Positions 11,241-27,314 of a stretch of 32,340 bases of DNA are shown here, piece after piece. Within the stretch, counting starts at the first letter, position 1; the number at the start of each line of letters is the position of its first letter. The stretch lies in the NCBI GenBank assembly GCA_024279555.1, contig JAJRRK010000005.1, positions 1-32,340 of the forward strand, read 5' to 3'. A model generated the notes under the pieces. The model was not told where the DNA came from. It did not search any database and saw nothing but the letters and a program-made list of their open reading frames with translations. The translations under genes were made by a program, and so were the position numbers. This DNA is from Campylobacterales bacterium. GTDB taxonomy: Bacteria > Campylobacterota > Campylobacteria > Campylobacterales > Sulfurovaceae.

Positions 11241-11738
11241 TCAATAAAAGTAGTGTAGCGAAAGTGTTGCACCCTCAATATGGTCAAGCCCCTCTATATT
11301 CTGTACAAGGTTGTAGTGGTAGCCGATGTCGATGTCGACGGTATCGGTGGCATAGATGATGAAGCCTGCCTGTCCGCCGTAACTGTAGTCGTTACTGTCG
11401 TCTATGTTATCATTCTGGTAGTGCAGATAGTTGACATTGACTCCCAGATAGGGGCGGAGTTTGGGGGTGCCGAAGAGATCATCGAGTGGGATGTAGTCGA
11501 CATTGAGCCCGGCAGATCCGTAGTCGTTGCCGTACTCGAAGAGAAAGGTGGTACGCCAGCGCAGTGTCTGTTTACCGACGTGGAAGGCAGCTGTGGTGTG
11601 GGTGGTGTCGTCGATGCCGGTCAGTGAGGCTTCATGGTAGTTGATGCTTGCTCCTATGAAAGGAAACTGCTCTTCTGCACCCAGGTACAGTGGCAGCAGG
11701 AGCAGCAAAAGAAGTCTTCTCACTATGCCTTCTCCCAT
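11241..11738 (-). CDS. Small outer-membrane beta-barrel protein
   Basis: 165 aa, signal peptide (RRLLLLLLLPLYLGAEE), alternating strands, C-terminal ATLSLHYFY; 16-nt overlap with cysS end. Confidence 0.6.
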   Translation of the reverse strand: MGEGIVRRLLLLLLLPLYLGAEEQFPFIGASINYHEASLTGIDDTTHTTAAFHVGKQTLRWRTTFLFEYGNDYGSAGLNVDYIPLDDLFGTPKLRPYLGVNVNYLHYQNDNIDDSNDYSYGGQAGFIIYATDTVDIDIGYHYNLVQNIEGLDHIEGATLSLHYFY

Positions 11739-13123
11739 ACTGTACCTTCGGGGGTATCCATAATGGCAATGCCCATGGCGGTGAGTTCGTCGCGGATAGC
11801 ATCAGAGGTGGTGAAGTCCTTGGCTTTTTTGGCTTCGGTACGTTTGTCAAGCAGGGCTTCAATCTTCTCTTTGAGTGCCTTATCGACACCTATTTGAAAG
11901 TAGCTGAACGGTTCTTTGCCGCCAAAGCCGAGCAGTTCGTCAATGAAGGCGATGTTTGCCAGTGTCTCTTCCTTGAGTGCTTTGTCTTTGGGATTGGCGT
12001 CAAGTTTCTCATTGGTCTGTGCGACCATCTCATCGATGATGGAGAGGGCGATAGAGATGTTGAGGTCATCACCCATGGCATCAAGCAGTGCTTTTTTAAA
12101 TGTTTTATTGACAGAAGAGGCTTTGCCTGGAAGCACACGTTTTTTGAGACGGTAGAGTTTGTCCAGCCGTTTTTTGGCTGTTTGCAGATCCTCTTCATTG
12201 AAGTTAAAATCGTTTCGGTAATGCACGGAGTTGAGGTAGTAACGCAGCACTTCACCGTCATAGACTTCAAGGGCATCTTTGAGGAAAAAGGAATTACCTA
12301 AACTCTTGCTCATCTTCTCTCCGTCTATCTGTACGAAACCGTTGTGCATCCAGTATTTGGCAAGTTCGTGTCCTGTGGCACAGCGGCTCTGTGCCGCTTC
12401 GTTCTCATGATGGGGAAAGAGCAGGTCGGCACCGCCGCCGTGGATGTCGATGCTGTATTCGCCGTTGCCTTGAAAATGGGCTTCGATCATGGCTGAACAC
12501 TCAATGTGCCAGCCGGGACGTCCTGCTGAGAAAGGGGCATCGAAGCAGATGTCCTCTTCGCCTTTGCAGGCTTTCCACAGGGCGAAGTCCTTGGGGTTGC
12601 GTTTTTCGCTGCTGTGCTCGACACGGCTCTGTGTGTCGTCATCGGTCACTTTATGGGAGATGTCACCGTAGTGGCTGTCTTTGGATGTGTCGAAATAGAC
12701 ATCGCCGTTATTGACCACATAGGCGAAGTCTTTGTCAATGAGGGTCTGTATCATATTTTTGATAGCGTCGAGCGATTCGGTCGCTTTGGGTTCGATGTCG
12801 GCACGTTGCACACCCAGTGCCGCCATTTCACTCAGGTAGCGGTCGATATAGTACGTGGTGATCTCCTGCATGCTTTTGCCCGTCTCTTCGACTTTTTTGA
12901 TGATCTTGTCATCAATATCGGTGAAGTTCTTTGCCAGGGTCACTTGGTAGCCGAGTGCTCTAAGGGTACGGGTGAGTAGATCGAAGGCAAGAGAGCTTCG
13001 TGCATGACCAAGATGGGCATCGTCATAGACGGTTGGACCGCAGACATAGATAGAGACTGCCGGAGGTTTGATGGGTTCGAAAGGACGTTTGGTCTTGGTG
13101 ACACTGTCGAAAATAGTCATCAT
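11723..13123 (-). CDS. cysS: Cysteinyl-tRNA synthetase
   Basis: 466 aa; YVCGPTVYDDAHLGHARSSLAFD, GGGADLLFPHHENEAAQSR, KMSKSLGN. Confidence 0.97.
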   Translation of the reverse strand: MMTIFDSVTKTKRPFEPIKPPAVSIYVCGPTVYDDAHLGHARSSLAFDLLTRTLRALGYQVTLAKNFTDIDDKIIKKVEETGKSMQEITTYYIDRYLSEMAALGVQRADIEPKATESLDAIKNMIQTLIDKDFAYVVNNGDVYFDTSKDSHYGDISHKVTDDDTQSRVEHSSEKRNPKDFALWKACKGEEDICFDAPFSAGRPGWHIECSAMIEAHFQGNGEYSIDIHGGGADLLFPHHENEAAQSRCATGHELAKYWMHNGFVQIDGEKMSKSLGNSFFLKDALEVYDGEVLRYYLNSVHYRNDFNFNEEDLQTAKKRLDKLYRLKKRVLPGKASSVNKTFKKALLDAMGDDLNISIALSIIDEMVAQTNEKLDANPKDKALKEETLANIAFIDELLGFGGKEPFSYFQIGVDKALKEKIEALLDKRTEAKKAKDFTTSDAIRDELTAMGIAIMDTPEGTVWEKA

Positions 13124-13204
13124 AGTATAAAAGCACCTTGTGTATGAATGGTGTGATTATAGCAAATTTGGGTAAAGGTGAGTTCTAAGTGGAAAAAATG
13201 TAGA

Positions 13205-13312
13205 ATTTTGTCACCAAATCAGACAAAGCCAAACCCGTTGTGAGGCGGGGACGGAAAGTTTCAGATCTTGTACTTCAAGATGGCTGGACTGCTAATGACA
13301 CTTTGCCATTAG
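13205..13312 (+). promoter_or_regulatory. GEMM-I (c-di-GMP-I) riboswitch with SD-sequestering expression platform
   Basis: GACAAAGCCAAACCCGUUGUGAGGCGGGGACGGAAAG: P2 stem CCCGUU-GUGA-GGCGGG with GNRA loop, then GACGGAAAG. P3 stem UUCAG.AUCUUG/CAAGAU..CUGGA. Closing GACUGCUAAUG aligns to GGUUGCCGAUG. Downstream hairpin CUAAUG/CAUUAG next to SD AGGA and ATG 13321. Confidence 0.85.
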
Positions 13313-13320
13313 GAAACAAA

Positions 13321-13857
13321 ATGTCCAATCTACATAAAGTCATTGTAAATATCTTTACCGGAGAGAAGATTGTTCTTCCCAAACCGATCAAGAAAGAGAT
13401 CGAGGTATTCGAGAACAGTGTGATGATCGCCGAACTCAACAAAGAAGGGTATATCCGTTATGCCAACCGCCGGTTTGTTGAGCTGTCAGGGTATGACAAG
13501 CATACATTGATCGGAGCACACCACTACATCGATAAGCATCCAGATATGCCTTTGGGGCTTTACCGTGCCTGTGAAGAGATTGCCTCTGAGAAAAAAATAT
13601 GGCGTGGATATGTGAAGCATTTGAGAAAGGACGGATCGTTCTACTGGAGTCTGACCTATATGCAGCCCAGAATTGATAGTAAAGGAGAGATTACCGGTTA
13701 CACGATCACCAGAAAAAAAGCCTATCCTGAAGCGATCATGGAGATGAGCATCAAGTATGAGAAGATGCAGGGGAAGGAGTTCATTGGAAATGACTTCTTC
13801 CTGCGCGGTGAGCTTTACCACGGAGATGAACTGGCTACGTTCGAATCACGTGCTTAG
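13321..13857 (+). CDS. PAS-domain protein (Aer/CetB-like energy-taxis or signalling sensor)
   Basis: Start at 13321 (MSNLHKVIVNIFTGEKIV...); PAS core SVMIAELNKEGYIRYANRRFVELSGYDKHTLIG...GYVKHLRKDGSFYWSLTYMQPRID. The ORF-track start at 13240 lies inside the riboswitch. Confidence 0.85.
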   Translation: MSNLHKVIVNIFTGEKIVLPKPIKKEIEVFENSVMIAELNKEGYIRYANRRFVELSGYDKHTLIGAHHYIDKHPDMPLGLYRACEEIASEKKIWRGYVKHLRKDGSFYWSLTYMQPRIDSKGEITGYTITRKKAYPEAIMEMSIKYEKMQGKEFIGNDFFLRGELYHGDELATFESRA

Positions 13858-15260
13858 CGGATAAGGGTTAGTATCCAACCGTTCAGTTCATAGATTATCA
13901 AAGCGAACAGCGGCATGACTGCCAGAAAATAGAGGGAACGTCTATGCAGTATGATGTGCCTGAACTTTCCGAACCCCACCTCCTTAACTGTAAAGATGAA
14001 GAGTACCCATCCCCCGATACTCCCTGCCAGTGCCAGACCTGCCGCGCCCATAGGGTGCATGAGGATCAGTGAAGCAGTCACGGAGGTAATGAGCGAATAG
14101 ACAGCGATCTTGGCAGCTTTTCTGTGCCGGTGTGAGGCGTAGAGAAAAAGTGAGAAGAGTTTCGCCAGACCAAAAGGGAGCAGACCGATCATATACATCT
14201 GAAGGACAAAAACAGTCTGAAGGGTCTCGGCCTGGGTAAACTTGCCGCGTTCAAAAAGCAGCCAGACGATCGGTTCTGCCAGGAGTATTCCCCCGATCAT
14301 CGCGGCACCGAGCAGAAATGAGAGCAGCCAGAACGCCTGTGTAAGATTCTCATAGGCTTTCTCCTCCTGACCATTCTTGAGTGCCTTGGAGACAGTAGGG
14401 AAGAGTACTGTCGCTGTGGCAATGGCGATGATGGCAAGGGGCAGCTGGAAGATACGGTTGGCATAGAAGAGGAATGAGACCGATCCGGTCATGAGGAAGG
14501 TTGCCAGAATGGTATCGACAAAAGCGGAGATCTGAGGGGTGGAGTTTCCGAGGATGCCGGGTAGGAAAAGGTTTTTAAAATGAATCTCCTCCTCTTTGAC
14601 ATCTTTTTTATTGCGGTACTTCCATCCGCCAAAAAGCAGGCGGTCGAGTTTGAAATGGTGGAGGGTGATGAGGTGCGCTCCTACCTGCAGCACTCCTCCG
14701 ATAAGCACGGCAAAACTGACTGCATAGGCAACGGTTTGGGGTTCCTCCTTCATGTAGATCCAAAGTGCACAAATCATCGAAATGTTCAGTAGTGCAGTAG
14801 ACATGGCAGTCGTGGCGAAGTGCTCCTTGTACTGCAGTAGAGTTGCCAAAAAAGTGACGATGAAGATGAGGTCAAGATACCAAAAGTTGATAGCAGTCAG
14901 CGGCGCGGTCTGTTCAATGAGTTCCCAACTCCACCCCCAGGCGAGCAGCTTGGTCATTGGTTCAGGGAAGAGGGTGATCACGAGCGAGAAGGCGAATAAA
15001 AAGAGCAGAAAGCGCAAAAAGATGGAGGTAGCGAAAACCCCCTTGTTTTTTGAAGCGATAAAGGAGGGCATGAACGCCTGTGTAAACGCCCCTTCGGCAA
15101 AGATACGTCTAAACAGGTTGGGCAGTTTGAAGGCAACAAAGAACATATCCGACCAGACTGAAGCCCCCAGTGCGGAAGCCATCAGCACATCGCGTCCCAG
15201 CCCTGTAATGCGGGAGAGTAGGATGCCGAAACTGTTGGTAAATATCGATCGTAGACGCAT
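13854..15260 (-). CDS. murJ: Lipid II flippase MurJ
   Basis: 468 aa; SFGILLSRITGLGRDVLMASALGASVWSDMFFVAFKLPNLFRRIFAEGAFTQAFMP and multiple TM segments. Confidence 0.95.
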   Translation of the reverse strand: MRLRSIFTNSFGILLSRITGLGRDVLMASALGASVWSDMFFVAFKLPNLFRRIFAEGAFTQAFMPSFIASKNKGVFATSIFLRFLLFLFAFSLVITLFPEPMTKLLAWGWSWELIEQTAPLTAINFWYLDLIFIVTFLATLLQYKEHFATTAMSTALLNISMICALWIYMKEEPQTVAYAVSFAVLIGGVLQVGAHLITLHHFKLDRLLFGGWKYRNKKDVKEEEIHFKNLFLPGILGNSTPQISAFVDTILATFLMTGSVSFLFYANRIFQLPLAIIAIATATVLFPTVSKALKNGQEEKAYENLTQAFWLLSFLLGAAMIGGILLAEPIVWLLFERGKFTQAETLQTVFVLQMYMIGLLPFGLAKLFSLFLYASHRHRKAAKIAVYSLITSVTASLILMHPMGAAGLALAGSIGGWVLFIFTVKEVGFGKFRHIILHRRSLYFLAVMPLFALIIYELNGWILTLIR

Positions 15261-22745: not shown

Positions 22746-23265
22746 CGTTGTCCTCATGTTGATTGTTAATCTCATTGTACACATTCTCCTCAATTTGGTT
22801 TTCTGTATGATTTTCGATCTGATCATCAATACTCTGTTGCGTTTGGTTTTCAATCTGCTCATCTATTTGTGCATCAATTTTCTCTTTTGCCCGTGTCTCA
22901 ATATGATGCACTAAAGTAGATTGAGTATGTTCAAATTGGTTTTGTTTTGTTTGATGTGCAGATGTATGTTTTGTGTTATGGACATGTTTGTTGTTGTGCC
23001 TTTCTTTATGAAAAGGCGTTTTTTGTCGCTTAGGTGTAACCTCTCTAATCACCTTTTGGCTACGACGGCTTTTTGTGATAAATTTGAGTTTTTTAATCGC
23101 TTCAATGCGTTCTTGATGTTGCATATTAATAATTTGCCGTTTAAATGCATTCATCAGTTTAAAACGTTCTTGAACAGGCGCTTTGCGAATAGCCTCTATT
23201 TGCGCATCTATAGAGTTTGCATATAGAATCAAAGAAAACAAAAATATGGAAAACAGCACTTTCAT
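22735..23265 (-). CDS. Secreted His/Gln/Asn-rich low-complexity protein
   Basis: 176 aa; signal peptide MKVLFSIFLFSLILYANS; His-rich middle and ID.QIE-type repeats; overlaps neighbours on both sides. Confidence 0.6.
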   Translation of the reverse strand: MKVLFSIFLFSLILYANSIDAQIEAIRKAPVQERFKLMNAFKRQIINMQHQERIEAIKKLKFITKSRRSQKVIREVTPKRQKTPFHKERHNNKHVHNTKHTSAHQTKQNQFEHTQSTLVHHIETRAKEKIDAQIDEQIENQTQQSIDDQIENHTENQIEENVYNEINNQHEDNDAD

Positions 23266-24317
23266 GATGTTCCCTTTGAAAGATCGCTAAAATCAAGTGC
23301 GATACATGTGCCTACATCGACCTTGGAGTCGATTTTGACTTTAATATTAAGTTCTGAAGTGAGTTTTTGGACGATATGAAGTCCTAACCCAAGTCCGCGG
23401 TCTTGCTCTTTGTAGTAGCGCTGCATCACCGCTTTAGTATTAGACATACCTTTTCCTGTATCCTCGATATAGAGTGTCTCTTTGGAGATGCGCAACATCA
23501 CTTTACCGTTTGGTTTGTTGTATTTTGCTGCATTGGTGAGTAGATTGTCAAGAATACGGGTTAGCAGTTCACTGTTTGTCTGTTTTTTGAGCGTATTTTC
23601 TTGCTCAAAAGTAAATGTAATGTGGGGATAGAGATTTTGTATAAAACGCATGCGTTTTTGTGTCAATAGGGCAATATCAACACATTCACTATGTAGAGGA
23701 GAGTGGTGTAGAAAACTTTTGAGGTTATTTTGCAAAAGTAAGATCGTATCGATACTATGGTTGATGCGCTGTATAAAGATATTGCTTTCGTATTGATCTT
23801 GAAACATTTTGAGATTGAGCACTATAGAGGAAATGGGTGTATTGAAGTCATGCAGTATATCTTTAATAAATTCGTCGTTAATGCGCAGCGCCTGTCGTAT
23901 GGGCTTGAGACTGTAGAAGGTAAAAAAGAGTGCAACTCCCATTAATAAAATCGTGGCAAGTATGAATTTGAGCCATAATGAACGGCGAATAGCATGGAGG
24001 TCATGTGTATAGAGATGATGAGGATAGATGATTCGGACATTATACTTTTTGGATTTTGGTACAGGGAAATAGGCGCTGATATTTTGATCATCATAAAGTT
24101 CGTTGAGTCTTTTCTCCCCTTTAGGAGTAAATTCAAAGTCAAATTGCGTACATTCATAAGTATAGCTGCATAACTGCATTGTTTTTAAGAGGCTTTGGTT
24201 GTACTCGCGTTTTTCTGTATGGTAGAGCTCTAAAAAGAGGAGGACAAGAAGTATCTCAAGAAGAGAAAAAAAGACCCAAAAATTTTTGAGCAGCGATTCT
24301 CTTTCATAATTCTTCAA
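23262..24317 (-). CDS. Sensor histidine kinase
   Basis: 351 aa; two TM helices around a periplasmic loop; H-box LHDFNTPISSI; N-box NLLTNAAKYN; G-boxes EDTGKGMS, RGLGLGLHIV. Confidence 0.92.
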   Translation of the reverse strand: MKNYERESLLKNFWVFFSLLEILLVLLFLELYHTEKREYNQSLLKTMQLCSYTYECTQFDFEFTPKGEKRLNELYDDQNISAYFPVPKSKKYNVRIIYPHHLYTHDLHAIRRSLWLKFILATILLMGVALFFTFYSLKPIRQALRINDEFIKDILHDFNTPISSIVLNLKMFQDQYESNIFIQRINHSIDTILLLQNNLKSFLHHSPLHSECVDIALLTQKRMRFIQNLYPHITFTFEQENTLKKQTNSELLTRILDNLLTNAAKYNKPNGKVMLRISKETLYIEDTGKGMSNTKAVMQRYYKEQDRGLGLGLHIVQKLTSELNIKVKIDSKVDVGTCIALDFSDLSKGTS

Positions 24318-24930
24318 GCAAGTATCCTCGGCCTCTTATGTTTTTAATGTCTATATTGAGTTTCTGTTTAATCTTTGTAAGTGCAACACGCAAGGCGGTA
24401 TCGGAGGGATGGTCTAAGCACTCATAAAACATCTCTTTGGTGACGATTTGACCGCAATGGTAAAGCAGTTTTTCAAAAATTTTGATCTGCACATTGGCAA
24501 GATCGACGATTTCACCGTCAACTCTGACGATACGCGAACGAGTATCGTAAATAATATTTTTGTAAGTAAGCGTTGTCTGTTTAAACTTGGATTGAATACG
24601 AATCAGCAGCTCCGCCGGATCAAAAGGCTTCTTGATATAGTCGATCGCACCAAGATCAAACCCTTTCGCAATGGTTCGCATATCGGTTAATGCGGTAATG
24701 AAAATCGTGGGTGTTTGATCTTCTGCAAAACGCAAAGAGGAGAGTAGATCAAGACTGTTACCGTCAGGAAGATTAATGTCCAGAAGATACAGGTCGTATC
24801 TCTTCTCAAAACTGAGTGTTTCGGCTTCATCTATAGCGTATGCAATATCTACATCGTAACTAGCATCTTTAAGAAAGTCTTGTAGTGTTTCGCTCAATAT
24901 GCGGTCGTCTTCAAGTAGAAGTATTTTCAT
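24304..24930 (-). CDS. OmpR/PhoB-type response regulator
   Basis: 208 aa; receiver (LLLEDDRIL, LLDINLPDG, KKPFDPAELL) and C-terminal winged helix (RVALTKIKQKLNIDIKNIRGRGYLL). Confidence 0.93.
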   Translation of the reverse strand: MKILLLEDDRILSETLQDFLKDASYDVDIAYAIDEAETLSFEKRYDLYLLDINLPDGNSLDLLSSLRFAEDQTPTIFITALTDMRTIAKGFDLGAIDYIKKPFDPAELLIRIQSKFKQTTLTYKNIIYDTRSRIVRVDGEIVDLANVQIKIFEKLLYHCGQIVTKEMFYECLDHPSDTALRVALTKIKQKLNIDIKNIRGRGYLLEEL

Positions 24931-25073: not shown

Positions 25074-27314
25074 TTAGTCGCCGTTTGGACCGTTATGGCA
25101 GTCGTAACAACTCACCTGATGTCCTTTGGCAAAGTTCTTTTGACCCCATTCGGTTGAGAAGCTGCGCGTTGTCCATGTTTTAGAGAGGACGCTTCCTCTG
25201 TAATCTTGTCCATGACACGCTTTGCACTGTGCCGCATTTTGTTCGGCTGCATGCTCATGTCCTTCAACCCAGCTTTGTCCTACCGGGTGCATACCGTGCG
25301 GTCCGCCGTTAATCGTATTGGGGATACTCGCATGACATGCGCTACACTCTCCGATTGTTCCGCTGTGTCCTTGTATACCCTGGCTTAACAGATTGTCTGC
25401 CGTATGGGCAGGATAGATGGCATGTGTTGCCCCATGACACGCTTCACACTGTAGTCCTCCGTGACCTTTACTGAACCGATACAGGCTGTATCCTTGCATC
25501 GGTGTATTTGGAAGTGTTGCAAAGTTACTGTTAACAGCACTTCTGAGTGTCCCGTTTGCCAATACGGCAGAGGTGTCTCTGACAGGATTACCGTTGGCAT
25601 CTTTGTAGTGGCACGCTTGACAGTTTGGCTCATCCAGCCAACCTTCTCGTGTTGCGTCGCCTACAGCATGCATGTCTCCGTGACAGCTTTGACACTGCAT
25701 CGCATTGTTGCCGTTAGCATCTTTGGCATCTCCCATGGCCCCTCTGAGACATTTTGTTTGAGAACCGGGATGACAGGCATAACAGGCACTTCGATTGTTG
25801 CTATCGCCTAAGAGCATCATATTGTTTTCAGGATCTTTGACCATTGCATGCAAGCCGTGTATTGCGGAAGTAAACGCTTTAATGTTTACACCGGGTTCCC
25901 AACCGATACCGACATTGGGAAGCGCGTTGGATTTGTGGCAGGCAGCACAGAGGATAGGCGTACCGTTTTGTGCTGTTGCTTCAAGTCCGCTGGCATTATA
26001 GTCATACCCTTTTTGCTGCAACAGCGTAAGGTAATCGGAAACGGCAGAGGGGAATTTCTCGTCGTGCAATCTAAGAATATTGAATTTGAAATCTTTTTCC
26101 GGATCGGGATTGTTTGCCCATCCTGCCGAAGGTTTTGCATCGGCAAGAGAGTTGCTGGTGTGGCAGCGTTTACAATCCATCTCGTCACTCACGGGCAGTA
26201 CGGTATTTGCCGTTGCCAAGATGTTGCCCTGCGCATCTTTGGCGACTACCTTGACAAGCGGATAGTAGTTTTTGCTTCCGTCATCATTGTACGGTGTTAT
26301 CGGAATGCCTTCTGCTTCCCACCATCCGTGTGTTGCGTTAAAAGTGAGTGTTTGCGGCGTAGTAGAAGGTGTTTTCTTTCCGGTTAGTCCCGTATCGGCA
26401 GCCAGCACAACGCCAAAGAGCTTGTCGGCATACTGCCAAAAGTTTGTTTTATTGCTACTTGAAGTGTTGATCTTGCCGTCTGTACCCGTTGTTGCCTCAT
26501 AGGTGATGATGACACCTGATGTCACAAGTCCGCCGTTTTTATCTTTGAGTTGTGCATGGAGGTTGTTGTAGGGCGGGAGAATAGAAAATACGGAGAAGTC
26601 GTTACCGTCCATACAGTGCATCCCAAGATCATTCCATGCCGTTAGTGTATAACCTCCATTAGTATTTCCGCTATTGTTGACGTACGCCACAGCGTCAGGT
26701 ATTCCATCATCATCAGAATCGTCATGAATATCCGGTATACCGTTATGGTTGTCGTCATCATAAGCATCTACGGTTCCGTCATGATCATTATCTTCATATA
26801 CATCTACGATACCGTTGTGGTTGTTATCCATCACGGGTGTATCATCAGAAAGTGCTAAAGTGGTGTCATTAATGACAACATTTTTTGAAACATCGGAAAC
26901 ATGATCGCCATTGGTATCAGGAATTTCATTGGGCGAAAGTGCTAACGGGATATGTCCTATATCGATATTTTTATTTACTCTTATCGTGTTGTGTCCATTA
27001 AAACTAATAGGTGTGATGACTCGATTTGCATCATCATTTTCGTTTGTTGTCATGACGATACGACATGCTTTCCCTGTTGGCACTTGAAGTGAAAAGGGGT
27101 GTTGATTAGTACCGTTTTGCGTGGAAGAGGTACTATGATAGCTACCGTCTTCACAAAAAGCTTCGATAAAAGTTCCGGGTACCGTACCTGTGATCGTAGA
27201 TGAGGCAGTATTCCCTGCAGGATTTGAGATATCTGTCTCTGCCGTTCCACCTCCTCCGCAGCCGATAAGCAACGGAATTGTTGCCATACTCAGTAGTAAG
27301 GATCTTCGTTTCAT
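25074..27314 (-). CDS. Nine-heme c-type cytochrome lipoprotein with TSP3-like calcium-binding region
   Basis: 746 aa; lipobox PLLIGC; nine CxxCH motifs (CKRCH, CAACH, CYACH, CQSCH, CQACH, CEACH, CSACH, CKACH, CYDCH); DNNHNGIVDVYEDNDHDGTVDAYDDDNHNGIPDIHDDSDDDGIPD. Confidence 0.9.
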   Translation of the reverse strand: MKRRSLLLSMATIPLLIGCGGGGTAETDISNPAGNTASSTITGTVPGTFIEAFCEDGSYHSTSSTQNGTNQHPFSLQVPTGKACRIVMTTNENDDANRVITPISFNGHNTIRVNKNIDIGHIPLALSPNEIPDTNGDHVSDVSKNVVINDTTLALSDDTPVMDNNHNGIVDVYEDNDHDGTVDAYDDDNHNGIPDIHDDSDDDGIPDAVAYVNNSGNTNGGYTLTAWNDLGMHCMDGNDFSVFSILPPYNNLHAQLKDKNGGLVTSGVIITYEATTGTDGKINTSSSNKTNFWQYADKLFGVVLAADTGLTGKKTPSTTPQTLTFNATHGWWEAEGIPITPYNDDGSKNYYPLVKVVAKDAQGNILATANTVLPVSDEMDCKRCHTSNSLADAKPSAGWANNPDPEKDFKFNILRLHDEKFPSAVSDYLTLLQQKGYDYNASGLEATAQNGTPILCAACHKSNALPNVGIGWEPGVNIKAFTSAIHGLHAMVKDPENNMMLLGDSNNRSACYACHPGSQTKCLRGAMGDAKDANGNNAMQCQSCHGDMHAVGDATREGWLDEPNCQACHYKDANGNPVRDTSAVLANGTLRSAVNSNFATLPNTPMQGYSLYRFSKGHGGLQCEACHGATHAIYPAHTADNLLSQGIQGHSGTIGECSACHASIPNTINGGPHGMHPVGQSWVEGHEHAAEQNAAQCKACHGQDYRGSVLSKTWTTRSFSTEWGQKNFAKGHQVSCYDCHNGPNGD

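Follow-up and report, generated by a model that had tools for sequence, protein, structure and literature searches.

Our data show that a PAS-domain gene in the window, by which we mean the whole 32,340-nucleotide stretch of Campylobacterales DNA analyzed here, is preceded by a c-di-GMP-I (GEMM-I) riboswitch aptamer; model match, covariation and genomic context leave almost no doubt about this identity. The RNA belongs to an already known riboswitch family. What the literature we searched does not describe is how large the regulon is in this genus and that it is tied to orphan Aer-type PAS proteins. Folding models lead us to a best explanation that we hold with slightly better than even confidence, in which the element would be a translational ON switch of the c-di-GMP-I class controlling a PAS sensor of the sessile state. 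The account draws on these features of the window:

11723-13123, reverse strand: cysS, the divergent upstream neighbor and a synteny anchor (Pfam; kept beside the PAS gene in relatives)
13201-13206, forward strand: putative -10 box TAGAAT (suggested by sequence and a weak TANNNT enrichment)
13218-13296, forward strand: c-di-GMP-I (GEMM-I) aptamer (RF01051 at 55.9 bits, model R1 at 77.1 bits, covariation in 48 relatives and five same-locus leaders)
13292-13312, forward strand: proposed anti-Shine-Dalgarno hairpin, CUAAUG (13292-13297) with CAUUAG (13307-13312), about -4.6 kcal/mol (from sequence)
13311-13314, forward strand: Shine-Dalgarno AGGA, half under the stem (from sequence)
13321-13857, forward strand: 178-residue single-domain Aer-type PAS protein (Pfam PAS_3, 5.1e-10; PDB Aer PAS domain 8dik, E = 3.5e-16)
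13854-15260, reverse strand: murJ, the convergent downstream neighbor and a synteny anchor (Pfam; kept beside the PAS gene in relatives)

We scanned the whole window against Rfam 15 with cmscan, and RF01051 was the sole family to exceed its gathering score, with all 87 model positions aligned and an E-value of 1.5e-8 against a gathering cut-off of 35 bits. The scan bears out an earlier sequence-only reading, which had proposed a c-di-GMP-I riboswitch spanning 13205-13321; the aptamer does lie there, but it measures 79 nt rather than 117. Every sequence element listed in that reading is found in the window, including P2 (CCCGUU-GUGA-GGCGGG, with a GNRA loop), and P3 is also present. In Vc2 numbering, the contact positions G20, A47 and C92 fall at 13228, 13255 and 13292, and the equivalents of positions 21 and 46 form a C-G pair (C21 at 13229, G46 at 13254). 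The window element resembles the Vc2-type RF01051 riboswitch of Vibrio cholerae in matching the model over its full length and in having P2 with its GNRA loop, P3 and the three contact bases; the copies collected here differ from that type in a weak P1 and in having C-G rather than G-C at 21-46.

For comparison we assembled a set of 184 different aptamers, most of them from the window's genus. G20 is conserved in 183, A47 in all 184, C92 in 179 and the C-G pair at 21-46 in 183. The retention of G20 and C92 and the replacement of G21-C46 by C-G, both noted from the sequence beforehand, thus hold across relatives, and the C-G pair is the rule in this group rather than a peculiarity of the window. 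A further compensation had been proposed, from G19-C93 to A-U, and it did not survive: in the joint counts of the 184 relatives A-C is the commonest combination at 19-93, and standard pairs number 34 against the roughly 40 that independent columns would give, so this position pair does not covary. The helices themselves covary strongly. In an alignment of 48 sequences, 98.1% of cells are paired and 15 of 20 pairs show double changes; none of 500 shuffles reached the observed values, and sliding the partner strand abolished the pairing signal. Pairing is likewise conserved in orthologous leaders: across the window and four other leaders from the same locus, whose PAS proteins are 44-63% identical to the window's, 98% of cells are paired and 9 of 20 pairs have changed on both sides, as high as in 0-1 of 500 shuffles.

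The aptamer ends 24 nt before the ATG at 13321 and therefore sits in the 5' leader. This start, which the sequence-only reading had preferred, is backed by the AGGA at 13311-13314 and by the matching start of homologous proteins, and the PAS_3 match confirms that a PAS gene lies downstream. Transcription probably begins near 13213, just ahead of the aptamer and behind TAGAAT; TANNNT is weakly enriched in a zone some 13-25 nt ahead of 183 aptamers.

The short spacer, the lack of a U run and the predicted stem on the Shine-Dalgarno sequence suggest that the riboswitch probably acts on translation. C92 is the first base of the CUAAUG strand, and CAUUAG overlaps the first half of AGGA. At low c-di-GMP, the aptamer tail from C92 onward would pair with the strand overlapping the Shine-Dalgarno sequence and keep translation low; c-di-GMP binding would capture C92, cost the stem a base pair at the ribosome site and raise translation of this monocistronic PAS gene. 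The window's stem taken alone is no better than chance (p = 0.15). At the same place, L057, a leader from the same locus, has another and stronger stem of 8 bp (UUGCUAUA/UAUAGCAG, p = 0.003) and the same-locus leader L059 a short one. On going from the free to the bound model, openness of the Shine-Dalgarno sequence rises from 0.55 to 0.97 in L057, from 0.28 to 0.54 in L059 and from 0.38 to 0.49 in the window, where the gain is small. We favor a translational ON switch because the Shine-Dalgarno sequence opens in these three bound models and because some paralogous leaders contain terminator-like hairpins with the ON arrangement known from pilM; that the switch is of ON type is, on these models, moderately probable.

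In pilM of Geobacter metallireducens, a GEMM-I ON switch, the ligand-pairing C is sequestered in the terminator (PMC9262584). The arrangement proposed here is similar in that the ligand-pairing C would also lie in a competing, expression-blocking stem. It differs in that pilM binds cGAMP and uses transcription termination, whereas the window has G20 and a proposed Shine-Dalgarno stem and lacks a terminator-like U run ahead of the gene. Terminator-like hairpins that use the 3' arm of P3 occur in the paralogous leaders G033:C115, G468:C6, G473:C1, G266:C1 and G464:C14, most clearly before a U run in G033:C115 and in the PAS leader G468:C6. The G033:C115 example (L200, position 1069) is a clear ON-type platform, a 13-bp hairpin whose 5' arm consists of the P3 3' strand plus C92 and which is followed by a U run.

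Two other candidates for the expression platform were rejected. An intrinsic terminator does not fit the window's leader, with its 24-nt spacer free of a U run, and a strict search found terminators in 4 of 167 leaders, the window's not among them. A family-wide rule of Shine-Dalgarno sequestration was also discarded: mean z-scores were -0.19 in 24 short leaders and +0.26 in 84 longer ones, and modelled Shine-Dalgarno change across 110 leaders shows no shared direction (15 up, 29 down). Folding alone was uninformative (z = -0.96).

The same aptamer could instead be an OFF switch, with the ligand allowing a GACA...UGUC hairpin to form over the start codon and reduce PAS translation. We consider this unlikely: the bound model of the window does contain the hairpin, at an energy similar to that of the Shine-Dalgarno stem, and modelled openness of the AUG falls from 0.62 to 0.40 on binding, but the bound models of the window, L057 and L059 open the Shine-Dalgarno sequence instead of closing it, and the paralogous terminator-like platforms are of ON type. 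GEMM-I aptamers as a class work in either direction (PMC9262584).

Between cysS and murJ, the aptamer is patchily distributed. Of the 14 relatives' loci L057-L070, 13 have the PAS gene between these two neighbors, the exception being L068. Five genomes have an intact aptamer, namely the window's and those of L057, L059, L060 and L063; in L058 it has decayed to 23 bits and lost the C92 region, and with filters off it was undetected in the eight cysS/murJ loci L061, L062, L064-L067, L069 and L070. No remnant exceeded noise in L061, L062 or L064-L070, again with filters off. The aptamer is therefore not essential for the PAS gene. Such losses also fit an aptamer that is decaying and has no regulatory function, a reading we regard as quite improbable for the window, whose copy retains all contacts and pairs and shows compensation at two pairs of alignment columns, 42-81 (U-A) and 46-78 (A-U). 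Patchy occurrence at one syntenic locus offers a system for studying riboswitch gain and loss.

The sequence-only reading had treated the aptamer as a single element; it is instead one of a set found across the genus, with as many as 21 in a single genome. The window's own genome (1.82 Mb, 178 contigs) holds three c-di-GMP-I aptamers, and 34 of 36 same-genus relatives have at least one, with 1-21 each. A search for the same aptamer across the phylum, as that reading had suggested, found it in 43 of 397 genomes and 13 of 68 genera in an even draw. The two further copies in the window's genome (C102:3840-3913 and C113:539-613) have as targets one main-subfamily PAS gene and one secreted-looking uncharacterized protein cut by the contig end. 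Tandem c-di-GMP-I riboswitches are known to be common (PMC9481103), and the sampled loci of the genus include 15 tandem pairs; the window copy is single. Tandem pairs (in G027, G003, G014, G029, G036 and others) often lie upstream of lipoprotein-like genes with a GCGGG motif.

The genes that follow aptamers in the genus encode single-PAS proteins or have envelope or adhesion functions. Of the PAS homologues classified in the genus, 91 in all, 35 come directly after an aptamer, which is weak in two cases. Mapped onto the PAS tree, the aptamer label is clustered, yet at least 12 changes are needed on well-supported branches, so gains and losses must have been frequent. By a hand count of the relatives' listing, 20 of about 150 aptamers (roughly one in seven) precede a single-PAS gene; PAS domains occur in 43 of 147 downstream genes, a proportion inflated by the way the loci were fetched. 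Other domains among these 147 genes are DUF4382, LysM, NlpC/P60, CAP, CarboxypepD_reg, PilJ and beta-barrel. LysM-like proteins with TTG starts about 170-230 nt after the aptamer recur in many genomes (L154, L159, L024, L014, L161, L185, L197 and L179). We found no description of a c-di-GMP riboswitch in Sulfurovum or Sulfurimonas in the literature searched, where subscription journals are little covered. With as many as 21 aptamers in one genome, these bacteria have a riboswitch-based c-di-GMP regulon where the searched literature describes none.

Judging from G20, C92 and A47, the ligand is very likely c-di-GMP. The earlier preference for c-di-GMP over the cGAMP class stands, as the window has G20 and not the A20 that marks GEMM-Ib, and G20 in 183 of 184 aptamers makes c-di-GMP the likelier ligand for the set. 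It is therefore very improbable that the aptamer mainly senses cGAMP or another dinucleotide: GEMM-I aptamers do include cGAMP sensors (PMC8835794), but cGAMP binding is enabled by a G20A mutation (PMC7288161), the sole A20 copy is degenerate, and GGDEF enzymes are plentiful, with 13 GGDEF domains in the window's genome, counted regardless of product type. That A20 copy (L208, G003:C2:493685) is a tandem member scoring 55 bits with the model built here, and it lies beside an intact copy.

The best PDB match of the window's PAS protein is the aerotaxis receptor Aer (8dik). Main-subfamily homologues retain the Aer FAD contacts, for which we used published lists (PMC9668731; PMC2628428). The window protein keeps H53, H58, D60 and R115 at these positions and differs from Aer by R57K, M69C, W70E and N85H, so flavin binding is uncertain. 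It has an Aer-type PAS domain and, like CetB, is a single-domain protein. The setting differs from that of Aer and CetB in that the genus lacks CheW and flagellar export and nearly lacks MCPs: among 78 same-genus genomes, CheW was found in none (control genomes were positive), FlhA passed its cut-off in none and the MCPsignal domain in two, with controls scoring as expected. The window's own genome gave no matches for an MCP partner, CheW or flagella. Sulfurovum, which we infer to be the window's genus, is reported to lack flagella (PMC5401914); according to the same study, Mcp, CheB and CheR do occur in the family, where here MCPsignal passes in only 2 of 78 genomes. A role for the PAS protein in taxis is therefore unlikely. 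The earlier proposal of energy taxis, with the gene encoding a receptor subunit like the PAS-domain energy-taxis protein CetB of Campylobacter jejuni (PMC2628428), has on its side the nearness of the domain to Aer, but it is contradicted by these gene counts, by the reported lack of flagella and by the loss of the residues equivalent to W70 and N85 in the FAD pocket of Aer, and we give it scarcely any credence.

Under the preferred ON-switch reading, cells would produce the PAS protein when they are sessile and c-di-GMP is high, along with the products of the envelope and adhesion genes that this kind of aptamer precedes elsewhere in the genus. As the genus lacks chemotaxis genes, we propose that the PAS protein could then sense redox state or a ligand and serve some partner that is not a chemoreceptor. 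A broader conjecture, tentative and on balance rather doubtful, is that the expanded Aer-type PAS proteins of this non-motile genus without chemotaxis genes are c-di-GMP-induced, mainly sessile-state sensors, brought under control by repeatedly gained and lost riboswitches and passing redox information to surface or biofilm behavior through a non-chemoreceptor partner. Through the aptamers, stand-alone Aer-type PAS sensors are tied to c-di-GMP in bacteria that offer them no chemotaxis system, and the role of such orphan sensors becomes a testable question.

Elsewhere in the window, positions 25074-27314 of the reverse strand encode a 746-residue protein that is rich in CxxCH motifs and has an N-terminus like that of a lipoprotein, near a sensor kinase and response regulator pair at 23262-24930.
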